From Muricauda sp. MAR_2010_75 (lineage in GTDB: Bacteria; Bacteroidota; Bacteroidia; Flavobacteriales; Flavobacteriaceae), in contig NZ_JQNJ01000001.1 of the NCBI RefSeq assembly GCF_000745185.1, positions 2,896,501 through 2,960,500 on the forward strand: DNA of 64,000 nucleotides. Direction: 5' to 3'. The translations under genes and the position numbers were made by a program. The stretch's first letter is position 1, and the number at the start of each line of letters is the position of its first letter. The notes below the pieces were generated by a model. It saw nothing but the letters and a program-made list of their open reading frames with translations, ran no database searches and was not told where the DNA came from. Shown here one piece after another: positions 32,093 through 56,134 of this stretch.

Positions 32093-32124
32093 ATGTCAAG
32101 TTTTTTGCGCATAAAACTTGACAT
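32093..32124. promoter_or_regulatory. AbiEi operator: 12-bp perfect inverted repeat
   Basis: ATGTCAAGTTTT and AAAACTTGACAT are perfect 12-bp arms separated by 8 bp. The right arm contains the TTGAC element of the promoter of the AbiE operon. AbiEi antitoxins are known to repress their own operon by binding inverted repeats, so this is the expected autoregulatory site. Confidence 0.75.
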
Positions 32125-32146
32125 GTAATTTATTTGGATATCTTTG
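32118..32146 (+). promoter_or_regulatory. Bacteroidota-type promoter of the AbiE operon
   Basis: TTGAC at 32118-32122 and TATCTTTG at 32139-32146 match the -33/-7 consensus (TTG, TAnnTTTG) with a 16-bp spacer. The antitoxin start codon lies only 7 bases after the -7 element, so the message would be leaderless or almost so. Confidence 0.75.
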
Positions 32147-32153
32147 CATTGTA

Positions 32154-32879
32154 ATGACAATTGCGAAAAAAATAGCGGATAAAATAGCGGAACTCCCGAA
32201 GGACAGTACTTTTGGTTATGCCGATTTACCTATTCGGTCAGAAGAATATGTAACCGCTGCAAAGGCCTTGGAACGACTACAAAAAAAAGGAATTATAAGA
32301 AAATTGTCCAAAGGCATTTTTTACAAACCCAATGTAACGGTTTTTGGAGAACTAAAGCCAAGGGAAGAGGATATTCTAAGACCATATTTATACGAAGATG
32401 GTAAGCGAATAGCCTATATAACCGGAACCTCTTTGTACAATCAGTTGAACCTGACTACCCAAATACCGTCACTATACAAAATAGCAAGTGCCGAAAAGCG
32501 CATATATATTAATAGAGGCGGCATCAAAGCAAAGCCCGTAAAGAGCTACGCACCCGTTACTGATAAAAATTATAGGATGTTGGGTTTTTTGGATGCCATG
32601 AAAGACCTTAATAGCATTCCGGATGTTGATAAAAAATCCGCTATTCTTATTTTTTTAAGACGTTTAGGGAAAATGACACCCAAAGAATTGGATGTACTCA
32701 TCAAGTATGCTCTCTTGTACCCACCACGGGTAAGGGCTTTGTTGGGAGCACTATTAGAACAACTTGATGTGGCAATCGATATAAAAGAATTGAAAAACTC
32801 ACTTAATCCACTTACTATCTATAGATATAATTTGCGTGATACCACATTGACAACACAACCAAATTGGAATATCGTATGA
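32154..32879 (+). CDS. AbiEi-type antitoxin (DUF6088-like winged-helix protein)
   Basis: The 241-residue product has an N-terminal winged helix (FGYADLPIRSEEYVTAAKAL, KKGIIRKLSKGIFY) followed by a C-terminal antitoxin region (RIAYITGTSLYNQLNLTTQ). It precedes and overlaps an AbiEii-type nucleotidyltransferase by four bases, the layout of type IV toxin-antitoxin/abortive-infection operons. The start at 32154 was chosen over 32118 because it lies just after the promoter. Confidence 0.85.
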   Translation: MTIAKKIADKIAELPKDSTFGYADLPIRSEEYVTAAKALERLQKKGIIRKLSKGIFYKPNVTVFGELKPREEDILRPYLYEDGKRIAYITGTSLYNQLNLTTQIPSLYKIASAEKRIYINRGGIKAKPVKSYAPVTDKNYRMLGFLDAMKDLNSIPDVDKKSAILIFLRRLGKMTPKELDVLIKYALLYPPRVRALLGALLEQLDVAIDIKELKNSLNPLTIYRYNLRDTTLTTQPNWNIV

Positions 32880-33850
32880 ATCTGCACACTAATAGTGAAC
32901 TCTTTGCTGAGGCGATAAGGGCAACTGCCCAACGTATGGATATTCTAGAAATTTACGTGGAAAAGGATTATTGGATATGCTATGCCCTAAAGCTCATTTA
33001 TGAAAGTGCAAACAAAGATGAGGCCATATTTAAGGGGGGTACAGCTTTGTCAAAGTGTTTTAAATACATTGACCGTTTTAGTGAAGATATTGATTTGGTA
33101 GTATTGCGCAGGGAAGAAGAGACGGGGAGCCAATTAAAGAACAAGCTTAAAAGAATAACCAAGGAAATAGTAGAACCATTCGAGGAGGTGGATATTGATG
33201 GAATCACCAATAAAATGGGAATGATAAGAAAGATTGCCTATAACTATCCCAAAATCTTTGAGGGCGATTTTGGACAAGTAAGGGATACTATCATTGTTGA
33301 AGCTACGTGGTTAGGTCACTTTGAACCATATATTAAGAAGGTCGTCAATACGTATATCTATGAAATGATGGTTGACTCAAACCAAACCAAACTAGCAGAG
33401 ACTTATGGATTATTACCCTTTGAAGTACTTGTGTTGGATGTCAAAAGAACACTTTGCGAAAAAATAATGAGTTTGGTCCGGTTTTCCCATACTAAAAACC
33501 CAATTGAGGATTTGAACAACAAAATTAGGCATGTATACGATATTCATCAATTATTAAAGGATGAAACGGTTCTAGGATTTTTCAATTCGGGTGCATTTGA
33601 TAAAATGCTCCTAAGGGTAGCCCATGATGATACGCAAAGTTTTAAGAACAACAATGATTGGTTAAAGTACCACCCAAAACAAGCATTGATTTTCAAAGAA
33701 CCTGAAAAAACATGGAACCAACTTAAAGATACCTATCGCAATGAGTTTGAGTATTTGGTTTATGGAAAATTGCCAAAAGAGGAAAGCATTTTGGAAATAA
33801 TTCTGTCCATATCAAATAGACTCACAAAAATAAAATGGGAGAATGTATAA
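32876..33850 (+). CDS. AbiEii-type nucleotidyltransferase toxin
   Basis: The 324-residue product overlaps the antitoxin stop (ATGA). It has the nucleotidyltransferase signature FKGGTALSK (54-60) and FSEDIDLVVL (69-73), as in AbiEii/MenT toxins, which transfer nucleotides to tRNA or other targets. With its partner it can act in phage abortive infection or element maintenance. Confidence 0.88.
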   Translation: MNLHTNSELFAEAIRATAQRMDILEIYVEKDYWICYALKLIYESANKDEAIFKGGTALSKCFKYIDRFSEDIDLVVLRREEETGSQLKNKLKRITKEIVEPFEEVDIDGITNKMGMIRKIAYNYPKIFEGDFGQVRDTIIVEATWLGHFEPYIKKVVNTYIYEMMVDSNQTKLAETYGLLPFEVLVLDVKRTLCEKIMSLVRFSHTKNPIEDLNNKIRHVYDIHQLLKDETVLGFFNSGAFDKMLLRVAHDDTQSFKNNNDWLKYHPKQALIFKEPEKTWNQLKDTYRNEFEYLVYGKLPKEESILEIILSISNRLTKIKWENV

Positions 33851-34684: not shown

Positions 34685-36088
34685 TCAATATCCCGCAGCG
34701 GTATCGTCCCCTCGTTTGTCCGCCCCGCCCTCAAGTCTGCCGTCTTCCAGCACTCGGATGGCGTCTACCTTTCCTATGATCCGGGTCCTGCCCTCATTGA
34801 TTTGGTAGCCTTTTGCCTTTAGGGTTTCAATGGTTTCCAAAGGAAAGCCTTCGGGTTCGAACACGACTACATCGGGCATCCATTGGTGGTGGAACCGCGG
34901 AGCGTTCACGGCATCCTGCATGCTGAGATTGAACTCGTGGACATTGAGTATGGTCTGGGCCACGGCCGTGATGATCGTGGAACCTCCAGGGGTGCCGACG
35001 ACCATGTAAAGCTCGCCGTCCCTTTCCACTACGGTCGGTGACATACTGCTCAACATTCGTTTCTCGGGTGCAATACTGTTGGCCTCGGAGCCAGGAAGAC
35101 CGAACATATTGGGAACACCGGGCTTGGTACTGAAATCATCCATTTCATTGTTCAGGAAAAATCCCAAGGCATCAATATAAAGTTTGGAACCGTATCCACC
35201 GTTCAGGGTCGTGGTCGCACTGATGGCATTGCCCTCCGCATCGATAATGGAGTAGTGGGTGGTCTCGCTGCTTTCCACAATTTCCACCGTTCCATGGCCT
35301 ACTTCCGAGGACAAGGTGGCCCTATCAAAAGTAAAATCGGCCATTCTGCACTTTAAGTAGTCAACGTCCATGAGCCCCTTATAGGGAATGTCCACGAAAT
35401 CGGGATCACCAAGGTAATGGTTCCGATCCGCATAGGCTCTTCTGGAAGCTTCGGTGAACAATTGGATGGCCCTTGTCGAATTGTGGCCATAGCTAGCTAT
35501 TTCATAGGGTGCTATCATGGTAAAGATCTGATCCATGGTCATACCACCACTGCTGGGGGGACCCATTGAGATGATCTTGATGTCCTTGTAGTCAAATACA
35601 ATGGGCGATCTCCACTTGGCCTCATACCTAGCGAGATCCTCCTCCGTGATCACACCTCCCTTTGCCTGTACATAGGCCGCTATTTTTTGGGCTACCTCCC
35701 CTTTGTAGAACCCATCACGTCCCTCGTTCATGATCTTTTCCAAGGTGGTGGCCAATGCCGGGTATTTGATGGTATCACCAGCTTTGTACACGGTCGCGAA
35801 CTTGGTGCTGTCACTATTAGCTTCAATGAATCGTTTTCGGGTACCTTCTAATCTTTTGGCCTGTTTTTCGGTCACCACGACCCCTTTTCTCGCCAAGGCA
35901 ATGATGGGTTCCATGATTTTGTTGAGGGGCAGTTTTCCGAATTTCTTGTGGACTTCCAGAACCCCGGCCACGGTACCTGGGACACCTACGGCGGTTCCCC
36001 CAGATGTGCTCAGCCCAGGTATGACATTGCCCAGGGAGTCGAGATACATGTCCCTATGGGCGGCCAATGGAGCCTTTTCCCTACCCAT
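34685..36088 (-). CDS. Gamma-glutamyltransferase, N-terminally truncated
   Basis: The 467 residues match the body of gamma-glutamyltransferase: EKAPLAAHRDMYLDS, GGTAVGVPGTVAGV, PPSSGGMTMDQ, the catalytic-threonine region ETTHYSIIDAEGNA and LNGGYGSKLY, FFLNNEMDDFS and GTPGGSTII. Family members run about 560-580 residues with a signal peptide; here about 90 residues including the signal and the DFR before EKAPL are missing. Homology breaks near 36082. Without export and the N-terminal strand it is probably inactive. The last part (ADKRGDDTAAGY) is normal. Confidence 0.88.
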   Translation of the reverse strand: MGREKAPLAAHRDMYLDSLGNVIPGLSTSGGTAVGVPGTVAGVLEVHKKFGKLPLNKIMEPIIALARKGVVVTEKQAKRLEGTRKRFIEANSDSTKFATVYKAGDTIKYPALATTLEKIMNEGRDGFYKGEVAQKIAAYVQAKGGVITEEDLARYEAKWRSPIVFDYKDIKIISMGPPSSGGMTMDQIFTMIAPYEIASYGHNSTRAIQLFTEASRRAYADRNHYLGDPDFVDIPYKGLMDVDYLKCRMADFTFDRATLSSEVGHGTVEIVESSETTHYSIIDAEGNAISATTTLNGGYGSKLYIDALGFFLNNEMDDFSTKPGVPNMFGLPGSEANSIAPEKRMLSSMSPTVVERDGELYMVVGTPGGSTIITAVAQTILNVHEFNLSMQDAVNAPRFHHQWMPDVVVFEPEGFPLETIETLKAKGYQINEGRTRIIGKVDAIRVLEDGRLEGGADKRGDDTAAGY

Positions 36089-36278: not shown

Positions 36279-36779
36279 ATGAACCAATTTTTTTCATCCC
36301 TTGAAAAAACGGGGATACGACAGTTGGGGCTGAGCATCACCTTTTCCGATGGAGAAGTATCGGTGTCCGTACTGCCCAAGAGCCATGCCGATGACAAGGG
36401 ACTGAAATCCCTAAGACCATTGAGCCTACGGGCAAGCGTTGAGGAAATGGACTGCAAGTTCTTCGAGGCCGTCCAAAGACCATTGGGGCGCACAAAGACC
36501 ATGTTCGACAGTGTGGAGGCCTATGAGGCATCCTTGAAAGCTTCCGAGGGCAGGACGGCAAAGGCCAAGAAGCAAAAGGAATCTTTGGGCAAGAAGACCA
36601 CCGCCTTGCACAACCTTATCAAGGAAAAGGACTTCAACCCGATGAAAGACCATGAGAGGGCGATCAAAGCTGCCAAGGAGATCTTGGCCATTGACCCTGA
36701 TCACAAAGAGGCCAAAAAGGTCTTGGAGCAGATGTCCCAATATGAATCACCAAACCTTTTCCAAGATGAAGATCACTAA
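36279..36779 (+). CDS. PRTRC system protein E
   Basis: The 166-residue protein opens with MNQFFSSLEKTGIRQLGLSI, followed by SDGEVSVSVLPKS and LRPLSLRASVEEMD, as in PRTRC protein E, and ends in a helical, Lys/Glu-rich region with a TPR-like segment (AIKAAKEILAIDPDHKEAKKV). It is the first gene of the cassette and overlaps protein C by 14 bases. Its molecular role is unknown. Confidence 0.85.
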   Translation: MNQFFSSLEKTGIRQLGLSITFSDGEVSVSVLPKSHADDKGLKSLRPLSLRASVEEMDCKFFEAVQRPLGRTKTMFDSVEAYEASLKASEGRTAKAKKQKESLGKKTTALHNLIKEKDFNPMKDHERAIKAAKEILAIDPDHKEAKKVLEQMSQYESPNLFQDEDH

Positions 36780-36984
36780 CATAACAAGAAAGTACCTTTT
36801 CCTGAACGGTAACAGGGAGAAGATCGAACTGGAGGACATCGACCCCGAAATGGGACATGAACGGATCATGGAGCATTATTCCGCACTATATCCCGAACTG
36901 ACCAATGCCAATGTCATGGACAAGGGCATTATCGATGGGTTCCATGAGGTGCACTTCCAATCATTGGCGGGAACCAAAGGTTGA
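36766..36984 (+). CDS. PRTRC system protein C (ubiquitin-like fold)
   Basis: The 72-residue product overlaps the end of protein E. The sequence fits a beta-grasp fold (RKYLFLNGNREKIELEDI, helix HERIMEHYSALYP) and ends with AGTKG. A C-terminal glycine tail is the conserved feature of this family, which Pfam groups as prokaryotic ubiquitin-like. It would be the modifier that the downstream ThiF and B proteins activate and conjugate; conjugation itself is inference. Confidence 0.85.
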   Translation: MKITNITRKYLFLNGNREKIELEDIDPEMGHERIMEHYSALYPELTNANVMDKGIIDGFHEVHFQSLAGTKG

Positions 36985-36988
36985 TGAT

Positions 36989-37168
36989 ATGAACGTGGAT
37001 GAACTTTTGAACAAGGGAAAATGTACAACACCATCAAAGACCATCACCTCGCGGGAACTCACGGAGTTCCACAACGACCTGTTCAGGGCGTTCCAACAGG
37101 AAAGCCACACCATAGGGACAAGGCGGATGAAGGCATTGTCAAAAAGGACAGACTGTTTCCTGACCTGA
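36989..37168 (+). CDS. Short PRTRC-associated reading frame, possible N-terminus of the next gene
   Basis: From ATG 36989 this frame gives 59 residues (MNVDELLNKGKCTTPSK, SRELTEFHNDLFRAFQQE) with natural-looking amphipathic composition. It ends at TGA 37168 just where the -1 frame begins to look coding. Either it is a small separate protein or the real N-terminus of the following gene joined by a frameshift near the A-run at 37141-37145. Confidence 0.45.
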   Translation: MNVDELLNKGKCTTPSKTITSRELTEFHNDLFRAFQQESHTIGTRRMKALSKRTDCFLT

Positions 37169-38076
37169 ACGTATGGCCCATTGCCCTTAACGATTTATCG
37201 GAAAAGTATTCAGGGGACGGACTTTGCCAATTGGCAAGGTTGATGGTGGAGACCACCCGAAAGTTCACGGGGAGGATCGATACTTGGAGGTTCAATAACG
37301 GGGACAGCCTGCAAGACCTTATCCTTAGATGTGCGAACAGGCTCAGGGACAGGGCAAGGGTCGATCTGATCGATGTGTACCGCAATTGTGACGGGGAATT
37401 GGAACTTGACCTCAAACGGTACATCGGGAACAAGGGCAATATCTACTGTATCAACCTAATGCCATTGTACGGCATGAAGCGCAAGAACAGAAAATTGTTC
37501 GAGATACTCCTATCCTTCATCAAGGGACTTCCCTTTGATTCGATCTTCGATACGTGTGAGGACAGGATCGACTGGATATGGACTTTTTTGATCGAGGAAA
37601 TGGCATATTGTAGGGAAGCCCCCAATGAGGATTATGGGGAGAGATTGAAAGGTTCAGTTGATTTCCTGAGTCGCTACGAAAGGAAATACAACGACTTTCA
37701 AATTATGGACTGGAAATCCCGATTGGAAAGCTACCGACCCCAAAAGGATGTATATAGGAAGCTAAAAGAACTCCTTTTGGCCTCGGAAAAATTGGATTTT
37801 CAGGTGGTACAACGGATTTCCGTTCGTGATGGATATGAGAGCATGGTCGATTTTTACCATACGTTCCTGATAACCGATGATGGCGAGAGCGAATTTACCC
37901 GATCGTACATCAACATGCTCAATGATTGTTCCAACGAGTACGACCTGCTCTCCACCTATGCCCATGCGACCGTAAGCAACAATGGGATGGAGACTTTTGA
38001 GGAAGGACTGGAGGAGAAACTAAAGGTAGTGGAAAACTTTATTTGTGAACTGAACGAACAGATAGAAAGAATTTGA
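37021..38076 (+). CDS. PRTRC-associated protein of unknown function (position of protein F)
   Basis: The frame runs to 38076, giving 351 residues if started at 37021. The first 40 residues (GTHGVPQRPVQGVPTGKPHH) look like an out-of-frame reading of the overlapping frame; convincing protein begins around residue 45 (FPDLNVWPIALNDLSEKY). The rest is helical and charged (LDLKRYIGNKGNIYCINL, DRIDWIWTFLIEEMA). It occupies the slot between C and B where other PRTRC cassettes carry protein F, but I cannot confirm homology. Confidence 0.6.
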   Translation: MYNTIKDHHLAGTHGVPQRPVQGVPTGKPHHRDKADEGIVKKDRLFPDLNVWPIALNDLSEKYSGDGLCQLARLMVETTRKFTGRIDTWRFNNGDSLQDLILRCANRLRDRARVDLIDVYRNCDGELELDLKRYIGNKGNIYCINLMPLYGMKRKNRKLFEILLSFIKGLPFDSIFDTCEDRIDWIWTFLIEEMAYCREAPNEDYGERLKGSVDFLSRYERKYNDFQIMDWKSRLESYRPQKDVYRKLKELLLASEKLDFQVVQRISVRDGYESMVDFYHTFLITDDGESEFTRSYINMLNDCSNEYDLLSTYAHATVSNNGMETFEEGLEEKLKVVENFICELNEQIERI

Positions 38077-38077
38077 T

Positions 38078-38785
38078 ATGGAAAAGATCATGGAATTGGA
38101 CATGGACGATCATTTGGTGCCAAAATTTGCATTGATAGGCTATGCCAGTACACCGAGTTATTACAATACGGAGCATTATTTTGCCTACCATAGGATAGTG
38201 GGGGAATGTCTTACAGCGGGGATGCCCTTGACCAAGGATACCGCGCGTAACCTATTCAGGTGCTTGGAAGGGGAATTGATAAAATTCTCCTTTAAGGGGC
38301 TTTTGCCCAAGAATTTGGTACACTTTGATTTTAAGGGAGATTTGCATTTGATGTGGATTGTCCACCCAAAACGGCACACCCTGTATTTTGATGAAAGGAT
38401 GGGCATCCCGATAGGGCAGTACCCCCTCCCCAAATTGGTCTTTTCGTTAAAAGGGAACACGTTGAACGTATTCGCCCTAAAACGGAGCGATGTCCTTGAC
38501 GGGGATACTGTATTGTACCATGCCCCTTTGCCCAATGTCAATGCACGGGGCAGGGTCTGCATGGGCAATGTTTCCATGGACTATGACGGATTCGAGCATT
38601 ATGAGGACATCATGGGATTTATGGAAAAACAGTTCTTTTCCTCGGTGTTCACGGAAACCCACCATAACGACCTGATCAAGGGGAACCTTGTGCAGACGAT
38701 GAACCGCCTAAATGGGAAACAGCGTTTTGACGATGCCCTTCTCATTGCGAACAACAAGACCATAAAACAACTTTATGAAAGATAG
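38078..38785 (+). CDS. PRTRC system protein B (E2-conjugase-like)
   Basis: In this 235-residue protein, the motif HAPLPNVNARGRVCMGNV (Cys161) resembles the active-site stretch of ubiquitin E2 enzymes (HPN, a glycine, then a catalytic Cys), in line with assignment of this family to a prokaryotic E2 group. The C-terminal half includes FMEKQFFSSVFTETHHND. It starts one base after the previous stop and overlaps the ThiF gene by 11 bases. Proposed role: accept the modifier from the ThiF protein. Confidence 0.85.
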   Translation: MEKIMELDMDDHLVPKFALIGYASTPSYYNTEHYFAYHRIVGECLTAGMPLTKDTARNLFRCLEGELIKFSFKGLLPKNLVHFDFKGDLHLMWIVHPKRHTLYFDERMGIPIGQYPLPKLVFSLKGNTLNVFALKRSDVLDGDTVLYHAPLPNVNARGRVCMGNVSMDYDGFEHYEDIMGFMEKQFFSSVFTETHHNDLIKGNLVQTMNRLNGKQRFDDALLIANNKTIKQLYER

Positions 38786-39554
38786 GATACATATCGCCCC
38801 CAATTATTTCTTCAATCCCACACACCCGATCACAATCTCGTTAATAGGGGTAGGTGGAAATGGCTCCCTTATGCTCGCAAGGTTGGCAAGGATGGACCAT
38901 GCCCTTCGCCAAACGGGACATCCCGGACTGCACGTCAGGGCATTTGACGGGGATGTTGTCGAACCCATGAACATCGGGAGACAATTGTTCACCCCCCATG
39001 ACCTTGGACAGAACAAGGTGGTCAATGCCCTGACCAAGATCAACCGTGCCTTTGGGCTGCAATGGGAAGGAATACCGATGAATGCCATGACCTTTGGGGA
39101 TGATATCAGATCGAACATCATCGTGACCTGTGTGGACAATGCCAAGTACAGGACGGCACTTTCTTTGGCCTTGCAGCACCCATATAGGGGTTCCGAATAT
39201 AGGACAATGTTCTACTGGATCGACATCGGCAACGGTAGTGACACGGGGCAGTTCGTTCTTGGTAGCCTGTTCGAGGAAGATAGAAAATTGGACGATGGTT
39301 CTTTGGAGTGCGTAAGCGGACTGAAGAAGATAACCGACCTTTTTCCGAATTTGGAAGACCACGATACCGAATCCCAACAGGGAAGGGGATGCGCCTACGC
39401 CGATCGGTTGATGGAACAGTCCCTTTATATCAACGATGTCTTGGTGGCCCACGCATCGGACTGCCTGTTCAGGTTGTTGTCGCACAGGCAACTATCCGTC
39501 CACGGGGGATTTGTGAACCTCAAAAGTGGAACGGTCAACCCTATAAAAGTCTAG
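38775..39554 (+). CDS. PRTRC system ThiF-family protein (E1-like)
   Basis: The 259-residue product has the ThiF/E1 adenylation motifs: ISLIGVGGNGSLML (ATP-binding loop, 25-30), the acidic pair in FDGDVVEPMNIGRQLF (58-70), and VTCVDN (118-122). Candidate catalytic cysteines are Cys180 and Cys206 (GRGCAYADRL). It likely adenylates the C-terminal glycine of protein C. It overlaps the B gene by 11 bases, so they are co-translated. Confidence 0.9.
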   Translation: MKDRIHIAPNYFFNPTHPITISLIGVGGNGSLMLARLARMDHALRQTGHPGLHVRAFDGDVVEPMNIGRQLFTPHDLGQNKVVNALTKINRAFGLQWEGIPMNAMTFGDDIRSNIIVTCVDNAKYRTALSLALQHPYRGSEYRTMFYWIDIGNGSDTGQFVLGSLFEEDRKLDDGSLECVSGLKKITDLFPNLEDHDTESQQGRGCAYADRLMEQSLYINDVLVAHASDCLFRLLSHRQLSVHGGFVNLKSGTVNPIKV

Positions 39555-39560
39555 GGAACT

Positions 39561-39857
39561 ATGGAGGACAATAAAAAAGTGTTCATAAAGGCATCCAATT
39601 ATTGGGCGATCCATGATATTGTCCTGTTGGGAAACTGGAGCAGGGTACAGGGAACAAAACTACAGGCACTTTACCATCTTGTACAGCGCAGGGGTAAGGT
39701 CTTGGAGGGCCCTCATGACATTAAATATAAAGGGATAAAGGTACTGGAATATGGAGATGGGTGTTACATCGGCTTTATCCGTATCGCTTACAAAGCGGAC
39801 ACTTTTTTTCCCTGCAAACTTCATGTGGTCAGCTTACAGGAACTGGTGAAAAAATGA
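39561..39857 (+). CDS. Unknown 98-residue protein following the PRTRC cassette
   Basis: It starts six bases after the ThiF stop and is clearly in the same operon. It is a compact alpha/beta protein (NYWAIHDIVLLGNWSRVQG, KYKGIKVLEYGDGCYIGFI) without signal peptide. I do not recognise a family. Location suggests an accessory component of the cassette. Confidence 0.55.
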   Translation: MEDNKKVFIKASNYWAIHDIVLLGNWSRVQGTKLQALYHLVQRRGKVLEGPHDIKYKGIKVLEYGDGCYIGFIRIAYKADTFFPCKLHVVSLQELVKK

Positions 39858-39957: not shown

Positions 39958-40188
39958 ATGACATTTTCGGAACTTTACAATGATCTTCCCTTGGTGGGTT
40001 TTCTTTGGGTGGCTCTATACACTTATTTGGGCATCCTGCGCATCAAACGATTGTTGAGGTTGCCATTCTTATTGGTGATCATCCTTATCGGGCTTATCCC
40101 GGGTATCTGGTTTGTACTTCCCCTATTTGCTGTTTTTGAACTGACCATGCAGATCATGGGGGCGCTTATTTATTTCAGGTTGATCTGA
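39958..40188 (+). CDS. Small three-span membrane protein
   Basis: This 76-residue protein is largely hydrophobic: LVGFLWVALYTYLGIL, RLPFLLVIILIGLIPGIWF and VLPLFAVFELTMQIMGAL. It lies just before the operon terminator. Family unknown; it could anchor the cassette products at the membrane, which is speculation. Confidence 0.55.
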   Translation: MTFSELYNDLPLVGFLWVALYTYLGILRIKRLLRLPFLLVIILIGLIPGIWFVLPLFAVFELTMQIMGALIYFRLI

Positions 40189-40603: not shown

Positions 40604-41290
40604 TTAATTTATGCATAACAAGTCAATTAAAAAATGCCACAAAATTATATTGTCATTTGATGATTTCCTTGAGTGTAAAGAGTATAATTTTTCTACCGAA
40701 GGTAAAGAATCTTTCATTATTAACCTTTCTTCACTTCCTGTCCAATCTATTGATTCATCTGTGTTATTTTCAGCCATTTCCTCAATCCAATTATTTACTT
40801 TTTTTATCCATTCCAAAGATGTCCGGCTCTGCACGTAGCCAAACATACCACATACTTTGAGATGTGATGAATGATGCCCCCTTTTGAAGCGTTCAATGCC
40901 TCCACGGATACCACAAACATACTCTTTGTTATTTGATGTCTCAGAGAATCTTTTTGCTTCAAATTCAAAAATAGGAATAGGCTTTCTATTTCTGGTTCTT
41001 ACAAAAATTCCAATGTCTGTTTCTTTAGTCGATTCAGTTTGTGTAGGATTCTTACTAAATCGAAAAGGAAAATATCCTTTGGATTCATCTTTGCATATTT
41101 CCAGATAATGGACTAGCAAATCACTTATTCTATTTTCTTTTTCCGAATCGTTTAGAGACAAGTAATATCCTGAAAAGTCCGAAATATAATTATCAATGAA
41201 GGACAAAATAAGATTGACTTCAACATCTTGTTCTACACTAAAATCACTTGATTTTGGAGATTGGTATGACGGAAGCGAATCTTTAAGCAT
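40604..41290 (-). CDS. PD-(D/E)XK-type nuclease paired with a DNA methylase
   Basis: In this 228-residue protein, the stretch TDIGIFVRTRNRKPIPIFEFEAKRF, split here as TDIGIF and FEFEAKRF, fits the D...ExK core of restriction-type nucleases. The N-terminal half is helical (LILSFIDNYISDFSGYYLSL). Its start overlaps the methylase stop by 8 bases, so the two are a coupled restriction-modification or defence pair. Target unknown. Confidence 0.65.
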   Translation of the reverse strand: MLKDSLPSYQSPKSSDFSVEQDVEVNLILSFIDNYISDFSGYYLSLNDSEKENRISDLLVHYLEICKDESKGYFPFRFSKNPTQTESTKETDIGIFVRTRNRKPIPIFEFEAKRFSETSNNKEYVCGIRGGIERFKRGHHSSHLKVCGMFGYVQSRTSLEWIKKVNNWIEEMAENNTDESIDWTGSEERLIMKDSLPSVEKLYSLHSRKSSNDNIILWHFLIDLLCIN

Positions 41291-44216
41291 CTATGTGACG
41301 AGATTTGAAGTAGTCTGCAAAAGTTTCGTCTGCATCTCTTAATGCGATAGATGGTGACCAATAGCGTAACTGTTTTGGTTTTGCCAATATTACGGAATCG
41401 TGCCCATAGATTTTAATAATCTTTTGAATGTGGTAGCTTTTAGTTTGTTCATTTCTCAATGGAATAACCGTTTCTATATATTCCTCAATATCATAAGCGT
41501 TTTCGGTCTGAGGATTTAGTACTTCCGAGGAATACTCAAAATGTAGAGCAAAGAATTTTCCTGCATCTATGATTTTGAATAATTGAAATGTTTTTGAATT
41601 TTGATAAACACTATTCAGGGTTTTCACGAAGATATCAGAGTATAAAACAATGTCTGTTATTGAGGTGTCGTTAGATAATCTTTCTTCGGATAAATGGTTG
41701 TTAATGATATCCTTAATAATTATGTGATCAACTTCTGAAATGTGCAAATCTCCAAGATAAGGAAGATTGAATACATCTTTTTGCAATAAAGTTGATTTAG
41801 ATCTGCTAACACCAGCTCGGGAACTGGTTGCAGTTAGATAAAACCTATACATTTCATTGTTTCTTATAACATCTCCAAGAGATATCAAAGAATCTACATC
41901 TTCAATAGGTGCGTGAATTCCTATTATTTCATTTTTATAAGTTATGTGTTGATCATAAAACAATACAGGGATGCTGTGCTTGCCAATGTTCTTTTTTATC
42001 AATAGAAGAGGGGGTTCAAAGATTTTCTCATTTCTTGGCCATTGATAATATTTGTCCGTATTTATAAATGTTCTATGGATACCTTTTTCGTCAAAATCCT
42101 CTGGTTCAAAAGATAAAGCGCCTGTTAAGTGCTCAGCTGTCGTGTAGCCACCTTTTTTCTTTTCAAAATCTGAATCTGTTAATTCACTATCAGGTTTGCC
42201 TTTAATAAAGCCATCACCAAAAACCCATCCGCTGTATTTTCTTTTTTCTCTCAAATAACTCCCAAGTGTACTTGCGTTTGATAGCTTTTTAATCAATTGA
42301 GATAATCTTCCGCCACCTAGTAAATTTGCTTTCCATACATATGGACTATTAATTGTATCATCCTTTGAAACCAGATGGAAATCATAATAATCAAATTCTA
42401 AGAATATCCGATTACTATTCGAGAAGGTACGATTTGCTACCAGATGCAATACATCTTCATTGTCAGGTGAAGACTTTTGAATAAAAACAGCAGCAGTAGC
42501 AACATTTTTCCTACCCCATAACTTGTCTGCAAGCTTGGTAAAGTCTATTACTTGCAAAAGGTTATATTGGCTAAATAAATCTTGTTTAAAGCTTAGGTCT
42601 TTTTGGTATAGCAATGGGCCTGATGGTTCAATCAAACACAGTAAACCTTCCTGTTTGAGAAGCTTTAATGATTGAACTAAGAAATGTAATGCTGGATTTT
42701 CGTCTGGAATTCTTATTTCACATTCATAACCCTTTTTCATTAATTCCTTAAAATGCTTTTTTCTGCTTGGTTCTTTTCCATTCACGGCGGGAAGGTTAAA
42801 TGGAGGATTACCAATTACCAAATCAAAATTTGCATTTGGCTTTGTCATGATGAATTCAAAGAAATCCTGAGTGATAATGTTTTCACTTAGGTCAGGGAAT
42901 TTCAATTTACCCCAAGTTGGAGGGTCTAGGTCAACTTCGTCCAGAATAGCTAGAGCCAGGCTAAACACAGATAGCCGAATGGCGTCAGGTTCAATATCAA
43001 CACCATATATATTATTGAGCAAAAGCTCTTTTAAAACTGGTAAAGAAGGCTTAACGAGCTTACCTGTCTTTTTCCATTCTTCAAATCGCCACCATTGAAC
43101 AATTCTCTTATAGGTTTTGACGAGAAAAATTCCAGACCCACAACTGACATCAATTATTTTAAAGTCCTTTTGACAAGACTTTATTGGCATGCATTCATCA
43201 ACCAAAGTGCTGACAATCATTTCAGGTGTATAAACTATATCCTTGCTGTCAGTTAGTAACTCTTCATAAACCGAACTGATTACCTCGACAGGTAAATGAG
43301 TAAAAGAATATAGCCGCCAGATTATATATTGACTATCCTTGATATTTCCATCCAGATAATCTGCAAGTTTTCGAACTTCTGTCTGCTGTATAGCTTTTCT
43401 TGCTTCAATCTCATTCTCTTGATGCCATTCGAATATTTTACCGTTAAAGTCATTGGCCAATTTATCCAGTAGGTCCAATAATTTTCCTTTTCTGATGGTA
43501 TCACAAAAATTGGAACATTGGAAATTCTTTTTAAAGTATGTTCCTGCGAAATAACCACTGGCACTTTTCTCATCTCTTTCCTCAAGATACTTAATAAGGA
43601 GGCTCTGGACCAAGAGCTTTAAAGCAACGTGTCTGTCTAATTCCGACTCTTCAACAAAGCTTCTAAAAATTTCCTTTAAGCCTCTGATTAAATCTCTTGT
43701 AGCAGATTCCTCAAAACGAAAATTTTGTTTTTCATTTTGCTCATCCCAAAATAAGCCAGTATCAAACTCCTTGGCATTATAATTCTTAATAGCTTCGCCT
43801 GTTAAAGTCAGTATTTCTTTGGTGTAACTATTCTTGTCTTCTTTTGGTCTTTTTCTAGAATCAAAGATGCTTACCGAAGATTTTTCGATGATTATGTATG
43901 CAGGAACCTGATAGCCATTCCACATTTGAATATGAATTCTATTCCTGTCCTCATTTGTTAGGCTTTTGTGGGTATAATCAAATAAATACAGTTGAGGAAC
44001 AAACGACCTCCCATCATTGAAATATCTAAAGAAAACGGCATCCGCTTGAAATTTCTTCTTAGCTGTTTCTAAAGCAAAAAGAATATTTGGGGATACTAAT
44101 TCGAAATTTAATTGTTCAAAACTATCGGTCAACAACACACCACTCTTCTTCTTGTCCTTGTCGAACATGGAGAAGTTCAAATCAATGATATGTTCCTCAA
44201 ATAGTTGTGTAGGCAT
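41283..44216 (-). CDS. Large N6-adenine DNA methylase (Eco57I/type IIG-like)
   Basis: This 977-residue protein carries the SAM-binding motif I, IIDVSCGSGIFLVKTYKR, with IYGVDIEPDAIRLSVFSLA after it, and the catalytic motif IV NPPF in FDLVIGNPPFNLP, as in gamma-class N6-adenine methylases. The N-terminal 340 residues (DAVFFRYFNDGRSFVPQLY) and the C-terminal 450 residues likely serve specificity. AT-rich compared with flanks. With the nuclease gene downstream it forms a two-gene restriction-like unit. Confidence 0.85.
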   Translation of the reverse strand: MPTQLFEEHIIDLNFSMFDKDKKKSGVLLTDSFEQLNFELVSPNILFALETAKKKFQADAVFFRYFNDGRSFVPQLYLFDYTHKSLTNEDRNRIHIQMWNGYQVPAYIIIEKSSVSIFDSRKRPKEDKNSYTKEILTLTGEAIKNYNAKEFDTGLFWDEQNEKQNFRFEESATRDLIRGLKEIFRSFVEESELDRHVALKLLVQSLLIKYLEERDEKSASGYFAGTYFKKNFQCSNFCDTIRKGKLLDLLDKLANDFNGKIFEWHQENEIEARKAIQQTEVRKLADYLDGNIKDSQYIIWRLYSFTHLPVEVISSVYEELLTDSKDIVYTPEMIVSTLVDECMPIKSCQKDFKIIDVSCGSGIFLVKTYKRIVQWWRFEEWKKTGKLVKPSLPVLKELLLNNIYGVDIEPDAIRLSVFSLALAILDEVDLDPPTWGKLKFPDLSENIITQDFFEFIMTKPNANFDLVIGNPPFNLPAVNGKEPSRKKHFKELMKKGYECEIRIPDENPALHFLVQSLKLLKQEGLLCLIEPSGPLLYQKDLSFKQDLFSQYNLLQVIDFTKLADKLWGRKNVATAAVFIQKSSPDNEDVLHLVANRTFSNSNRIFLEFDYYDFHLVSKDDTINSPYVWKANLLGGGRLSQLIKKLSNASTLGSYLREKRKYSGWVFGDGFIKGKPDSELTDSDFEKKKGGYTTAEHLTGALSFEPEDFDEKGIHRTFINTDKYYQWPRNEKIFEPPLLLIKKNIGKHSIPVLFYDQHITYKNEIIGIHAPIEDVDSLISLGDVIRNNEMYRFYLTATSSRAGVSRSKSTLLQKDVFNLPYLGDLHISEVDHIIIKDIINNHLSEERLSNDTSITDIVLYSDIFVKTLNSVYQNSKTFQLFKIIDAGKFFALHFEYSSEVLNPQTENAYDIEEYIETVIPLRNEQTKSYHIQKIIKIYGHDSVILAKPKQLRYWSPSIALRDADETFADYFKSRHIDA

Positions 44217-44866: not shown

Positions 44867-45631
44867 ATGGCAGAAGTTGTTTACGACACATTAAATTTTG
44901 AAGGGTCTATTGATGAAAAGACGTTTCGCGGTACATTAAAAGAGCTTGGAGCCAAAGGGTCCAATATCTCTAAAATAGAACTATCAGGGGAACAATTGAA
45001 CTCGCTCATTGCCGTTCTATTTGTATATGGACTCCATTATGATGAATTGGCGGAGGCCAAACGCCCCCGTTTTCTAAATACGCTAGTGGAGGAAAAGCTC
45101 CCGTTGTTCCAGTTGTCCCAACTATTTTCCAGACACCTGTTGAACAATTTGGGTCAAGGAGCAATGCATGAACTCCAACAGCTCCAACAATCGGAAAACA
45201 ATATTGAGGATGTTCTCTCCAATGAAAGCTTGTTGGACTTTGTGGAAATGGAAATGCTCGATCCCACCACTTCCTTCCGAAAGTGGGAATACGGCCGTTT
45301 TGCCATGGCTTTTATGGGCCAAAATTTTTTTGGCCATATCAAATGGGACAAGATCAAAAGTAAAACAGACAGCCTTAAAAGCATCGGAGTGCTATTGGAA
45401 GAAAATGGCCATAAATTGGATTCCCAAGAAAAAAGATTCCTGCAATTGATGGCCAAGGGGATGTTGTTGCCCCAAAAAGTCAATATGTCTGAATTTCTGC
45501 ATGTCGGTTCCTATGTACAGGAAAATATGATGGGGCTTTCGGTACGGATTAAGGAACTGTCCATGGTGTTGGAAAGCATCATTGAAAAGGAAATAGCCAA
45601 ACAAAAGGGCAAGGAAGGGCCAAGTCTATGA
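44867..45631 (+). CDS. Unknown 254-residue protein (first of a coupled pair)
   Basis: A helical, soluble protein without signal peptide (MAEVVYDTLNFEGSIDEKTF, LLNNLGQGAMHELQQLQQSE). Its stop overlaps the next start (ATGA), so the two are co-translated. I do not recognise a family. The pair stands alone between the methylase region and small accessory genes in the mobile element. Confidence 0.65.
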   Translation: MAEVVYDTLNFEGSIDEKTFRGTLKELGAKGSNISKIELSGEQLNSLIAVLFVYGLHYDELAEAKRPRFLNTLVEEKLPLFQLSQLFSRHLLNNLGQGAMHELQQLQQSENNIEDVLSNESLLDFVEMEMLDPTTSFRKWEYGRFAMAFMGQNFFGHIKWDKIKSKTDSLKSIGVLLEENGHKLDSQEKRFLQLMAKGMLLPQKVNMSEFLHVGSYVQENMMGLSVRIKELSMVLESIIEKEIAKQKGKEGPSL

Positions 45632-46113
45632 TCGGTTCGGATGCATTGCTCAAGCATCTCCAAAAATTGGGGAGGGAGGAGGAACCCTTGATAGGTGGCA
45701 ATCAGTACACAGTCTCCCAAGTAAGGTTGGCCGAAAGAATCGTCCAAGACCTGCAACATGACTTGGAAAGGGCCACGAGAAAACCCAAACTGTCACGAAG
45801 AAGGGCGTTCATCGTCATATTGGAGGAACTCTACTACGATATACCAGAATATCCAAGTGAACTTACCCTGGAGAGTGTACATAGAAGGGCCTCATTGCGG
45901 TTCGAGTATATGAACCGTAATGTCAAAGTATTCAGGACACCGACAGAGGTACATCCAAAAGATCCATGCACGTATTATGAGGACAATGCCCATGGAAAGG
46001 CAAGGTATAGGGTTGCTTTGGAACATTTGGTGAACGGGTCATCCAAATACTTTCTAGAACCCAATGCCGAGGCTTCACTAAGGATTATATATGGGGAAAT
46101 AATGCTTTGCTAA
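45628..46113 (+). CDS. Unknown 161-residue protein (second of a coupled pair)
   Basis: Basic, alpha-helical protein (RLAERIVQDLQHDLERATRK) with a middle part rich in Tyr/Pro (ELYYDIPEYPSELTLESVHR). Overlaps the preceding gene by four bases. No domain recognised; basic composition is compatible with nucleic-acid binding but not diagnostic. Confidence 0.65.
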   Translation: MIGSDALLKHLQKLGREEEPLIGGNQYTVSQVRLAERIVQDLQHDLERATRKPKLSRRRAFIVILEELYYDIPEYPSELTLESVHRRASLRFEYMNRNVKVFRTPTEVHPKDPCTYYEDNAHGKARYRVALEHLVNGSSKYFLEPNAEASLRIIYGEIMLC

Positions 46114-54882: not shown

Positions 54883-56073
54883 TCAACCGAACAATCGATT
54901 CATTTCTTCTGCTTCTTCCTTATGGTAAAAATCTTTTAAATAATGCTGTGTGGTGGACAATTTGGTATGCCCCAATAGTTTGGAGATCATTAACAACCCA
55001 GTATCTTTTTTTACCGCAAAGTCGGCGAAGGAATGTTTTGCCATATGCATATTTACCCATTTTCCTATTTCTGCTTTTTCACAAGCATTACGCAATGACC
55101 GGTTTATAGCATTATTGGCAATATATAATTTGTGTTCTATTTCTTCTGCATTTTTATTGTCCATTCCATAAAGGGGAGGAAAGATAAAAGTATTGTTTCT
55201 ACCTTTATAATTTTCTAGTATAGCCACAGCCTTAGGAGTCAAAGGCAAAGTTCTTTTTGCACCGGCTCTAGTTCTGGATTTGCCCATAGTATATACGATT
55301 TCATTTCCGGCAATATTTTCCCATTTAAGCTTGCATATATCAGAAAATCTCATACCAGCTGTATAGAAGGAAAATAGGAACATGTCCCTGGCTTTGATCA
55401 TCCCTTTGAATCTTACAGGGATTTCCAATTCTGAAAGTTTGGTGATTTCTTCAAAAGTCAATGAGTCTTTTTCAACATTCTCAGTTACTATTGTATAGCC
55501 TCTTATGGGATTTTCCTTTATAACACCCATTTTCATTGCTTTATTTAGAACTGCATACATTGACTTGAAATTCGAGGCGACGGTATTAATTTTATTCCCT
55601 TTTTCAAGCATCCATTTTTCATAATCCTTGGCGAATTGTACGGAAAGATCGGAGAATGAAACGTAGCTCGAGAATTTTTTTAGTTTTTGGATGTACTTCT
55701 GTTGTGTGTTGGCAGTGCGGATTTTACCTTTTAACCTAGCTTCATCGACTATTTGTTGATAGAAGTCCAAAAAAGAACTAGTATCATACTTCTTGTTATT
55801 CTTATAAAGAAGGAGCAAGCGTTTGGCCGAAATCCCTTTATTATTGTAATAGATTTGTTGAACAGAGATCAATAAGGATTGGAGATTGGCGTTCAGTTTT
55901 TCTTCAAGTGGATGCCTTTTTATTTTTTTCTTTTTGTCGTCCCACTGGTTTTTTAGTACGGATATTCCAGAGTCAATATACTGGACATCCTTTTTAGAAG
56001 TCTCAATTTTAAGTCTGATTAATTGGGTTCCGTTCTTTTTTAAATAAGAGGAAAGATAATAGTTGAAATTCAT
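54883..56073 (-). CDS. Tyrosine site-specific integrase
   Basis: The 396-residue protein starts MNFNYYLSSYLKKNGTQLI; longer in-frame starts exist. It has a SAM-like core-binding domain and a catalytic domain with Arg I (AGMRFSDICKLKW), HMAKHSFADFA (His343 with Lys346 where Arg II is usual), LLGHTKLSTTQHYL (His369, Tyr378). It integrates or excises the element. Converges with the relaxase operon and abuts the element edge. Confidence 0.9.
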   Translation of the reverse strand: MNFNYYLSSYLKKNGTQLIRLKIETSKKDVQYIDSGISVLKNQWDDKKKKIKRHPLEEKLNANLQSLLISVQQIYYNNKGISAKRLLLLYKNNKKYDTSSFLDFYQQIVDEARLKGKIRTANTQQKYIQKLKKFSSYVSFSDLSVQFAKDYEKWMLEKGNKINTVASNFKSMYAVLNKAMKMGVIKENPIRGYTIVTENVEKDSLTFEEITKLSELEIPVRFKGMIKARDMFLFSFYTAGMRFSDICKLKWENIAGNEIVYTMGKSRTRAGAKRTLPLTPKAVAILENYKGRNNTFIFPPLYGMDNKNAEEIEHKLYIANNAINRSLRNACEKAEIGKWVNMHMAKHSFADFAVKKDTGLLMISKLLGHTKLSTTQHYLKDFYHKEEAEEMNRLFG

Positions 56074-56092
56074 TAGTTCGGTATTAGTTCGG
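56072..56092. repeat. Tandem direct repeat at the integrase start
   Basis: ATTAGTTCGG occurs twice with one base between, overlapping the integrase start codon region. Such iterons at an integrase promoter can be Xis or repressor sites, or arm-type sites for the integrase itself. Confidence 0.45.
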
Positions 56093-56134
56093 AATATGCA
56101 TAAATATAATGAAACATAAACGATTATAAACAAT

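Follow-up and report, generated by a model that had tools for sequence, protein, structure and literature searches.

The PRTRC cassette of Muricauda sp. MAR_2010_75 lies on the forward strand at positions 36279–39554 of the 64,000-nucleotide stretch analysed here (hereafter, the window), which belongs to a genome assembled as a single contig of 4.42 Mb whose close relatives are Allomuricauda/Flagellimonas. The cassette comprises the genes for proteins E and C, a gene in the position of F, and the genes for B and ThiF. Protein E (36279–36779, 166 residues) scored above the cut-offs of both PF19556 (7e-18) and TIGR03741 (7.5e-12; 45.2 bits, cut-off 37.95). The gene for protein C, the putative ubiquitin-like modifier (36766–36984), overlaps that of E by 14 bp and encodes 72 residues ending in AGTKG; C exceeds the cut-off of PF14454 Prok_Ub (2e-13) and falls below that of TIGR03738 (42.0 bits, cut-off 45.95). 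A 351-residue open reading frame (ORF; 37021–38076) has the position and size of PRTRC F. Protein B (38078–38785), E2-like and carrying Cys161 and Asn153, passes PF14460 Prok-E2_D (4.8e-24) and not TIGR03737 (81.1 bits, cut-off 131.45). ThiF (38775–39554), an E1-like adenylating enzyme with Cys206, is encoded by a gene that in the window overlaps that of B by 11 bp; it matched TIGR03736 at 8.9e-61 (205.3 bits, cut-off 144.75) and is the only PRTRC_ThiF above cut-off in this genome. Since C and B pass the Pfam but not the NCBIfam cut-offs, the cassette can be regarded as a diverged PRTRC form.

An earlier note, made from the window sequence alone, had described a tight run of E, C, an unknown gene, B and ThiF, with a 72-residue C ending in AGTKG and a Cys161 in B. 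The ORF order, lengths and overlaps were reproduced, both protein features are present in the translations, and the family matches agree. Its five-gene list stands, except that it overlooked an overlapping gene, here called x (36989–37168), which is treated below.

Judging from its gene set, the cassette would correspond to operon type 6d of Iyer, Burroughs and Aravind (2006). As far as the available part of that paper describes it (PMC1779556), the two share an E1-like protein, a Cys-bearing E2-like protein (Prok-E2_D), a small Gly-ended ubiquitin-like protein (Prok_Ub) and a further protein in the position of the helical protein, E being matched via NCBIfam. They differ in that type 6d, according to that paper, always has a JAB protease fused or adjacent, whereas the window cassette has none; moreover, the window C and B remain under the NCBIfam cut-offs, and the available text makes no mention of gene x, which lies between C and F. 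The window F, in addition, is not detectably homologous to plasmid F proteins.

The order E-C-F-B-ThiF was found in 40 of 46 loci from Bacteroidota, a term that for the comparison genomes means drawn from the phylum of the window; the 46 include the window itself, and some regions are present twice. Among the other six, two have the same order without a match to F, two (L039 and L103) have a lone PRTRC ThiF with no match to B, C, E or F in the stretch examined, and two (L116 and L117) are broken cassettes with stops or split frames. The ratio of nonsynonymous to synonymous substitution rates between the window and six relatives is 0.07–0.28 for E, C, F, B, ThiF and the gene at 39561. The recurring order and these low ratios imply that the cassette is not a chance arrangement; it is a real, conserved and, on sequence evidence, probably active PRTRC cassette without JAB, a variant form of a known kind.

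PRTRC genes are not confined to this phylum. Probing plasmids with the window ThiF (tblastn) retrieved 362 records, and among the matches listed most are annotated as PRTRC. The same protein retrieved no relative in a scan of viral sequences. Burkholderia phage BgVeeders33 (OK665841; L137, 16252–20738) carries E, C, x, F, B, A and ThiF, six of these genes scoring above the NCBIfam cut-offs, A being the JAB/JAMM protease. A scan of IMG/VR with the ThiF of this phage yielded 47 contigs with a relative (L138–L184), of which 46 harbor E, C, F, B, A and ThiF and one (L160) only B, A and ThiF. Our literature search, in sources available in part, found no earlier report of PRTRC genes in phages.

Gene x and the start of F

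Gene x (forward strand; ATG at 36989, stop at 37166–37168) is a frame of 59 codons lying between C and F and in a different frame from the latter; its start, length and stop are kept in seven relatives. In the region where x and the F ORF overlap, the comparison of the window with its relatives gave 27 synonymous and 25 nonsynonymous differences in the x frame, against 7 and 39 in the F frame. The same bias was obtained for the summed pairs of the Allomuricauda type (78:83 in the x frame vs. 24:122 in the F frame), of the L038 group (33:28 vs. 10:49) and of the other Flavobacteriaceae-type loci (203:259 vs. 68:411). The pairs in this test are not independent, and the Burkholderiales plasmids yielded no usable ones. 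Phages provide a control, given that in those inspected F starts at a codon overlapping the x stop, so that the other frame should mostly not code: here the x frame gave 447:409 and the other frame 84:720. The F frame of Bacteroidota behaves over x much like this control, which in turn would imply that the window F starts near 37165.

These data point to x as a hidden gene under purifying selection, described here for the first time. Annotation misses it, as the other frame, that of the F ORF, remains open upstream. ORFs of the size of x occur in 99 of the 106 loci with C and B, under permissive limits and with some doubtful picks; it is the selection test, and not the presence of an ORF at this place, on which the claim rests. 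The x genes of the different groups share place and size; the best hhalign probability between groups is 9.1%, and a single family is not proven. The window, phage and Paraburkholderia plasmid x proteins matched nothing in Pfam or PHROGs, nor did phage x match NCBIfam. In several groups the C-terminus of x often reads Leu/Met-Pro-hydrophobic-hydrophobic-Phe or -Pro (LPMVF, LPMIF, MPVLP), which could be either a binding motif or a by-product of the overlap with F.

As for F, the unknown gene of the earlier note is a real ORF in the F position, although the first ~48 codons of the frame beginning at 37021, in which protein-level constraint is not evident, are probably untranslated. The protein would then start at about 37165, at a CTG overlapping the x stop, and have ~303 residues. 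The overlapping start reads CTGA in the window, and ATGA in six and GTGA in one of the seven phages inspected that have such an ORF; some Bacteroidota have TAA as the x stop and no such start. Initiation at the overlapping codon is favoured where one is present. In 93 of 99 cases F is offset by –1 from x, which would allow the two to be fused by programmed –1 frameshifting, but visual inspection revealed no shared slippery site. A frameshift or a pseudogene in the F ORF, suggested by the better-looking frame upstream, was rejected, as the relatives share both frames. The F protein matched neither TIGR03742 nor alpha-hel2, its hhalign probability to nine plasmid F proteins was 1.8%, and homology to the proteobacterial F was not detectable by this method.

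The modifier and its proposed maturation and conjugation

Within the phylum, 24 genomes with PRTRC_ThiF were searched, and the PRTRC_A profile matched in none of them; the same search detected it in two of four control plasmid records, exactly those annotated with A. Forty-two Bacteroidota cassettes contain B and ThiF and show no visible break; in these, ThiF starts –4 to 27 bases from the end of B (9 and 450 bases in the broken L116 and L117). Of 28 genomes or records, only two, both of them plasmids used as controls, have a PRTRC ParB above cut-off; the window genome has two weaker ParB matches, far from the window. Thus, the earlier statement that neither JAB nor the ParB of the cassette is present agrees with the profile searches. 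The suggestion of a reduced form is acceptable for the cassette as such but not as a local loss, JAB being present in no Bacteroidota locus examined. JAB accompanies PRTRC in 12 of 21 plasmid loci and in 48/48 phage loci; the nine JAB-less plasmid loci come from Proteobacteria and Deinococcus, and their records, searched whole, gave no PRTRC_A. On a Tunicatimonas plasmid (L094, 15059–17106), a set of multiubiquitin, ThiF and DUF6527 genes lies near PRTRC, so that one replicon harbors two ubiquitin-like systems.

The presence of JAB parallels the C-terminus of C. The C domain terminates in Lys-Gly in 106/106 loci of all groups, and this end is bare in all 42 Bacteroidota loci with a scored C. 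Residues beyond Lys-Gly were found in 51 of 58 cassettes with JAB and in none of 48 without it; these counts omit nine loci lacking a scored C (four Bacteroidota, three JAB-less plasmids, one plasmid with JAB and one phage), one of which, Salinimonas, has an annotated C ending in Asn-Gly. Taking one row per 95%-identity cluster, which avoids the Bacteroidota regions present twice (L011/L045, L012/L042, L013/L044 and L014/L047), the figures are 39/46 and 0/40, with four further rows without a scored C. Fisher values for this association are descriptive only. All 60 A proteins possess the JAMM motif. This comparison, which we consider new evidence on how the PRTRC modifier would mature, suggests that JAB probably matures C and that cassettes without JAB encode it pre-matured.

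The association might instead reflect shared ancestry alone, with the tails being extra domains that are never cut. A tree-based pairs test of JAB status against tail found few independent changes and was hence underpowered, and 32 of the 42 long phage tails belong to one loose family, as such an explanation would have it. Nevertheless, it appears unlikely to us: phage C carries GTKG in 47/47 cases, the residue that follows is variable, and among close phages the tail ranges from 0 to 100 residues while GTKG stays fixed. When phages with tails longer than 20 residues are paired, 360 pairs reach a domain identity of 80% or more, and in 108 of these the tails are less than 35% identical. Furthermore, tails of 1–5 residues (R, AL, TAL, ADA, SHT, AYAQI) are hard to reconcile with domains.

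The predicted model of C consists of two strands, a helix, two strands and a loose tail, residues 70–72 having a predicted confidence (pLDDT) below 50. The beta-grasp fold proposed for C is consistent with this model and its loose C-terminal tail, although its structural matches are weak, and the profile of C against solved structures gave only chance-level matches. C possesses the free C-terminal glycine expected of the modifier in an E1-E2-ubiquitin-like system.

The E2-like nature of B and the E1 adenylation motifs of ThiF, both already recognised in the earlier note, hold in the family matches given above and in the residues. Excluding the window itself, Cys161, Asn153, Pro150 and Gly163 are invariant in 109/109 B proteins (41 Bacteroidota, 21 plasmid, 47 phage), and G25, G27, G28, G30, D58, N66, R69, Q70, K81, D121, R126, Cys206 and Q215 in 111/111 ThiF proteins (43, 21 and 47, respectively; duplicates included), D60 varying in two and N220 in one; the broken L116 and L117 and also L160, whose B is short, were left out of both the residue counts and the tree. 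Asn153 sits eight residues ahead of Cys161, and in eukaryotic E2s the spacing from the Asn of the HPN motif to the Cys is also eight. An absolutely conserved downstream His is described for this E2 family in the available part of Iyer et al. (PMC1779556); no His reaches 90% conservation among the 45 B proteins compared. The profile of B retrieved no relative among solved structures, and that of ThiF matched eukaryotic E1s best (5.8e-11), followed by UBA5, NAE, ThiF, Cap2 (4.3e-6) and MoeB. The role of Cys206 is deduced, because the ThiF alignments shown end before this residue.

Such invariance, together with the purifying selection on the genes tested, makes it very improbable that the Bacteroidota cassette is decaying, having lost JAB and retained a non-functional remainder, even if the lack of JAB and PRTRC ParB, the lone ThiF loci (L039, L103) and the broken copies (L116, L117) would fit such a process.

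According to the reading that we prefer, with a probability of roughly 0.6, the JAB-less PRTRC cassette runs a ubiquitin-like conjugation cascade whose modifier is ready-made at Lys-Gly. ThiF would adenylate Gly72 of C and probably form a thioester with it via its own Cys206; C would then be passed to Cys161 of B, which would attach it to a target protein. In the relatives with JAB (phages and many plasmids), C would mostly be a precursor, cut after Lys-Gly by the JAMM protease A; the window pathway could run without A because its C already ends there, and it would have no deconjugase of its own. The products of the overlapping frames, x and F, are probably helper or targeting subunits. The order of modifier, E1 and E2 put forward in the earlier note is thereby retained, its three parts having invariant catalytic residues and a beta-grasp-like, if weakly matched, model of C.

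In the sulphur transfer systems ThiS/ThiF and MoaD/MoeB, the C-terminal Gly of the carrier is likewise adenylated. C might accordingly be a sulphur carrier, with Gly72 adenylated by ThiF and converted into a thiocarboxylate as in ThiS/MoaD, and with B not being an E2. The ThiF/MoeB-like E1 domain, the small, beta-grasp-like and Gly-ended C, and a phosphoadenosine phosphosulfate reductase gene ~5 kb downstream of the Alteromonas cassette are in line with this idea. Unlike those systems, the window ThiF has an E2-like partner, namely B with its invariant Cys, within a conserved partner set; furthermore, in the annotated plasmid cassettes examined, none of the genes between ParB/E and ThiF is labelled as a rhodanese, a cysteine desulfurase or a metabolic enzyme. 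Thiamine and molybdenum cofactor operons lack JAB, according to the available part of PMC1779556, and PRTRC has it in the plasmid and phage proportions given above. On balance, a sulphur carrier seems decidedly unlikely.

The conjugation cascade that we favour resembles known systems only in part. The logic of E1, E2 and JAB is shared with Cap2/Cap3 of CBASS, and the ThiF profile matches Cap2. In CBASS, E1 and E2 are reportedly fused in Cap2, with the cyclase itself serving as the tag; in the window, E1 and E2 are separate genes and the ubiquitin-like protein is a dedicated one. BilABCD also combines a ubiquitin-like protein, an E1 and an E2, and in the available part of its description (PMC11354881) a JAB enzyme trims the ubiquitin-like precursor and exposes a Gly; BilA has two ubiquitin-like domains, BilD a separate Cys domain and BilB a CEHH motif. 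Unlike BilABCD, the window cassette encodes a single ubiquitin-like domain, which stops at KG, along with a short ThiF, and it lacks JAB.

The host element and the possible role of the cassette

The other copies of the element align with the window from base 36074 rightwards, and this position, where the similarity starts, marks the left end of the remaining element and a deletion junction. The element cuts off the 5' end of a chromosomal gamma-glutamyltransferase gene (34685–36088, reverse strand), which matches PF01019 at positions 37–511 only and thus lacks the first 36 profile positions; two full-length paralogs exist elsewhere in the genome. To the left of the junction, the relatives have nucleotidyltransferase-like genes and a 1.6k-residue N6-methylase/SNF2 protein, and the relative G016 also has genes for a TraG-type ATPase, a coupling protein, a ParA-like protein and others. 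On the right side, the match between G016 and the window runs through MobC, the relaxase and the integrase and continues within yebC. In the window, the segment 53199–54585 (forward strand) holds a gene that from its position is presumably MobC-like and a MobA/VirD2 relaxase gene (PF03432, 3.2e-33), and the right end is occupied by a tyrosine integrase (54883–56133, reverse strand; PF00589, PF13102) adjoining yebC, the same site as in G016. From the junction at 36074 and the comparison with the relatives it follows that the window carries the right-hand portion of an integrative conjugative element that has lost its left-hand portion by deletion; the "mobilizable element" of the earlier note should therefore be replaced by a remnant of such an element.

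In the Allomuricauda-type family, the PRTRC genes recur together with a pair of genes kept in these elements (44867–46113, forward strand), the intervening DNA varies, and the mob genes recur where the contig extends far enough. Downstream of ThiF, at the positions that had been reported, are two accessory ORFs on the forward strand: the co-directional s1 (39561–39857; 17 ORFs among 49 loci, all in Allomuricauda-type and nearest loci) and s2 (39958–40188; 17 ORFs among 49 loci), a small protein judged by eye to be hydrophobic. The region 40604–44216 contains cargo that, from an NPPF motif recognised by eye, looks restriction/methylase-like; it is >99% identical in L012, where the cassette proteins are 89–97% identical. 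Just outside the element, at 32118–33850, lies a toxin-antitoxin-like pair of DUF6088 (AbiEi-like) and AbiEii. A large N6-methylase/SNF2-helicase protein stands beside PRTRC in Allomuricauda-type elements (L010, 499–5370); on a Polaromonas plasmid (L096, 11550–16499), PRTRC is accompanied by a relative of this protein (27% identity, E 1e-122).

The restriction-like genes beside the window cassette raise the question of whether the cassette is itself anti-phage or anti-plasmid defence cargo. CBASS Cap2/Cap3, a defence system, is built of related parts, and the same kinds of parts make up BilABCD, as described in the available text of PMC11354881. The cassette, on the other side, holds its place in the Allomuricauda-type family while the flanking DNA varies, is found in phages themselves and, among 17 stretches of proteobacterial plasmids, has a ParB gene as its neighbour in 15 (none being in view in the other two). 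Although BilABCD, too, reportedly has a role in defence, we regard a defence function as unlikely here. A role in the upkeep or establishment of the element is the most likely one, since conjugative elements, large plasmids and phages carry the cassette as part of their backbone, and it is next to ParB in those 15 stretches; a role in conflict between elements could also be envisaged. PRTRC genes of B. thetaiotaomicron appear in the expression tables of PMC10434189, in the part available, and our literature search, in sources available in part, found no functional experiment on the PRTRC cassette.

Tentatively, and with somewhat less confidence than in the cascade itself, PRTRC may be depicted as a mobile-element ubiquitin-like system with a hidden subunit, x, whose modifier is a precursor in phages and some plasmids and a ready tag in Bacteroidota, where it would perhaps act one-way, without a deconjugase; such a system, carried as a complete pathway by phages, would accordingly serve the element and not the host. 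The comparison adds to the cassette a gene missed by annotation and questions the annotated start of F; it places PRTRC on plasmids, Bacteroidota conjugative elements and phages; and it predicts that A would cut C after Lys-Gly and that the Cys206-Cys161 cascade would work without A.

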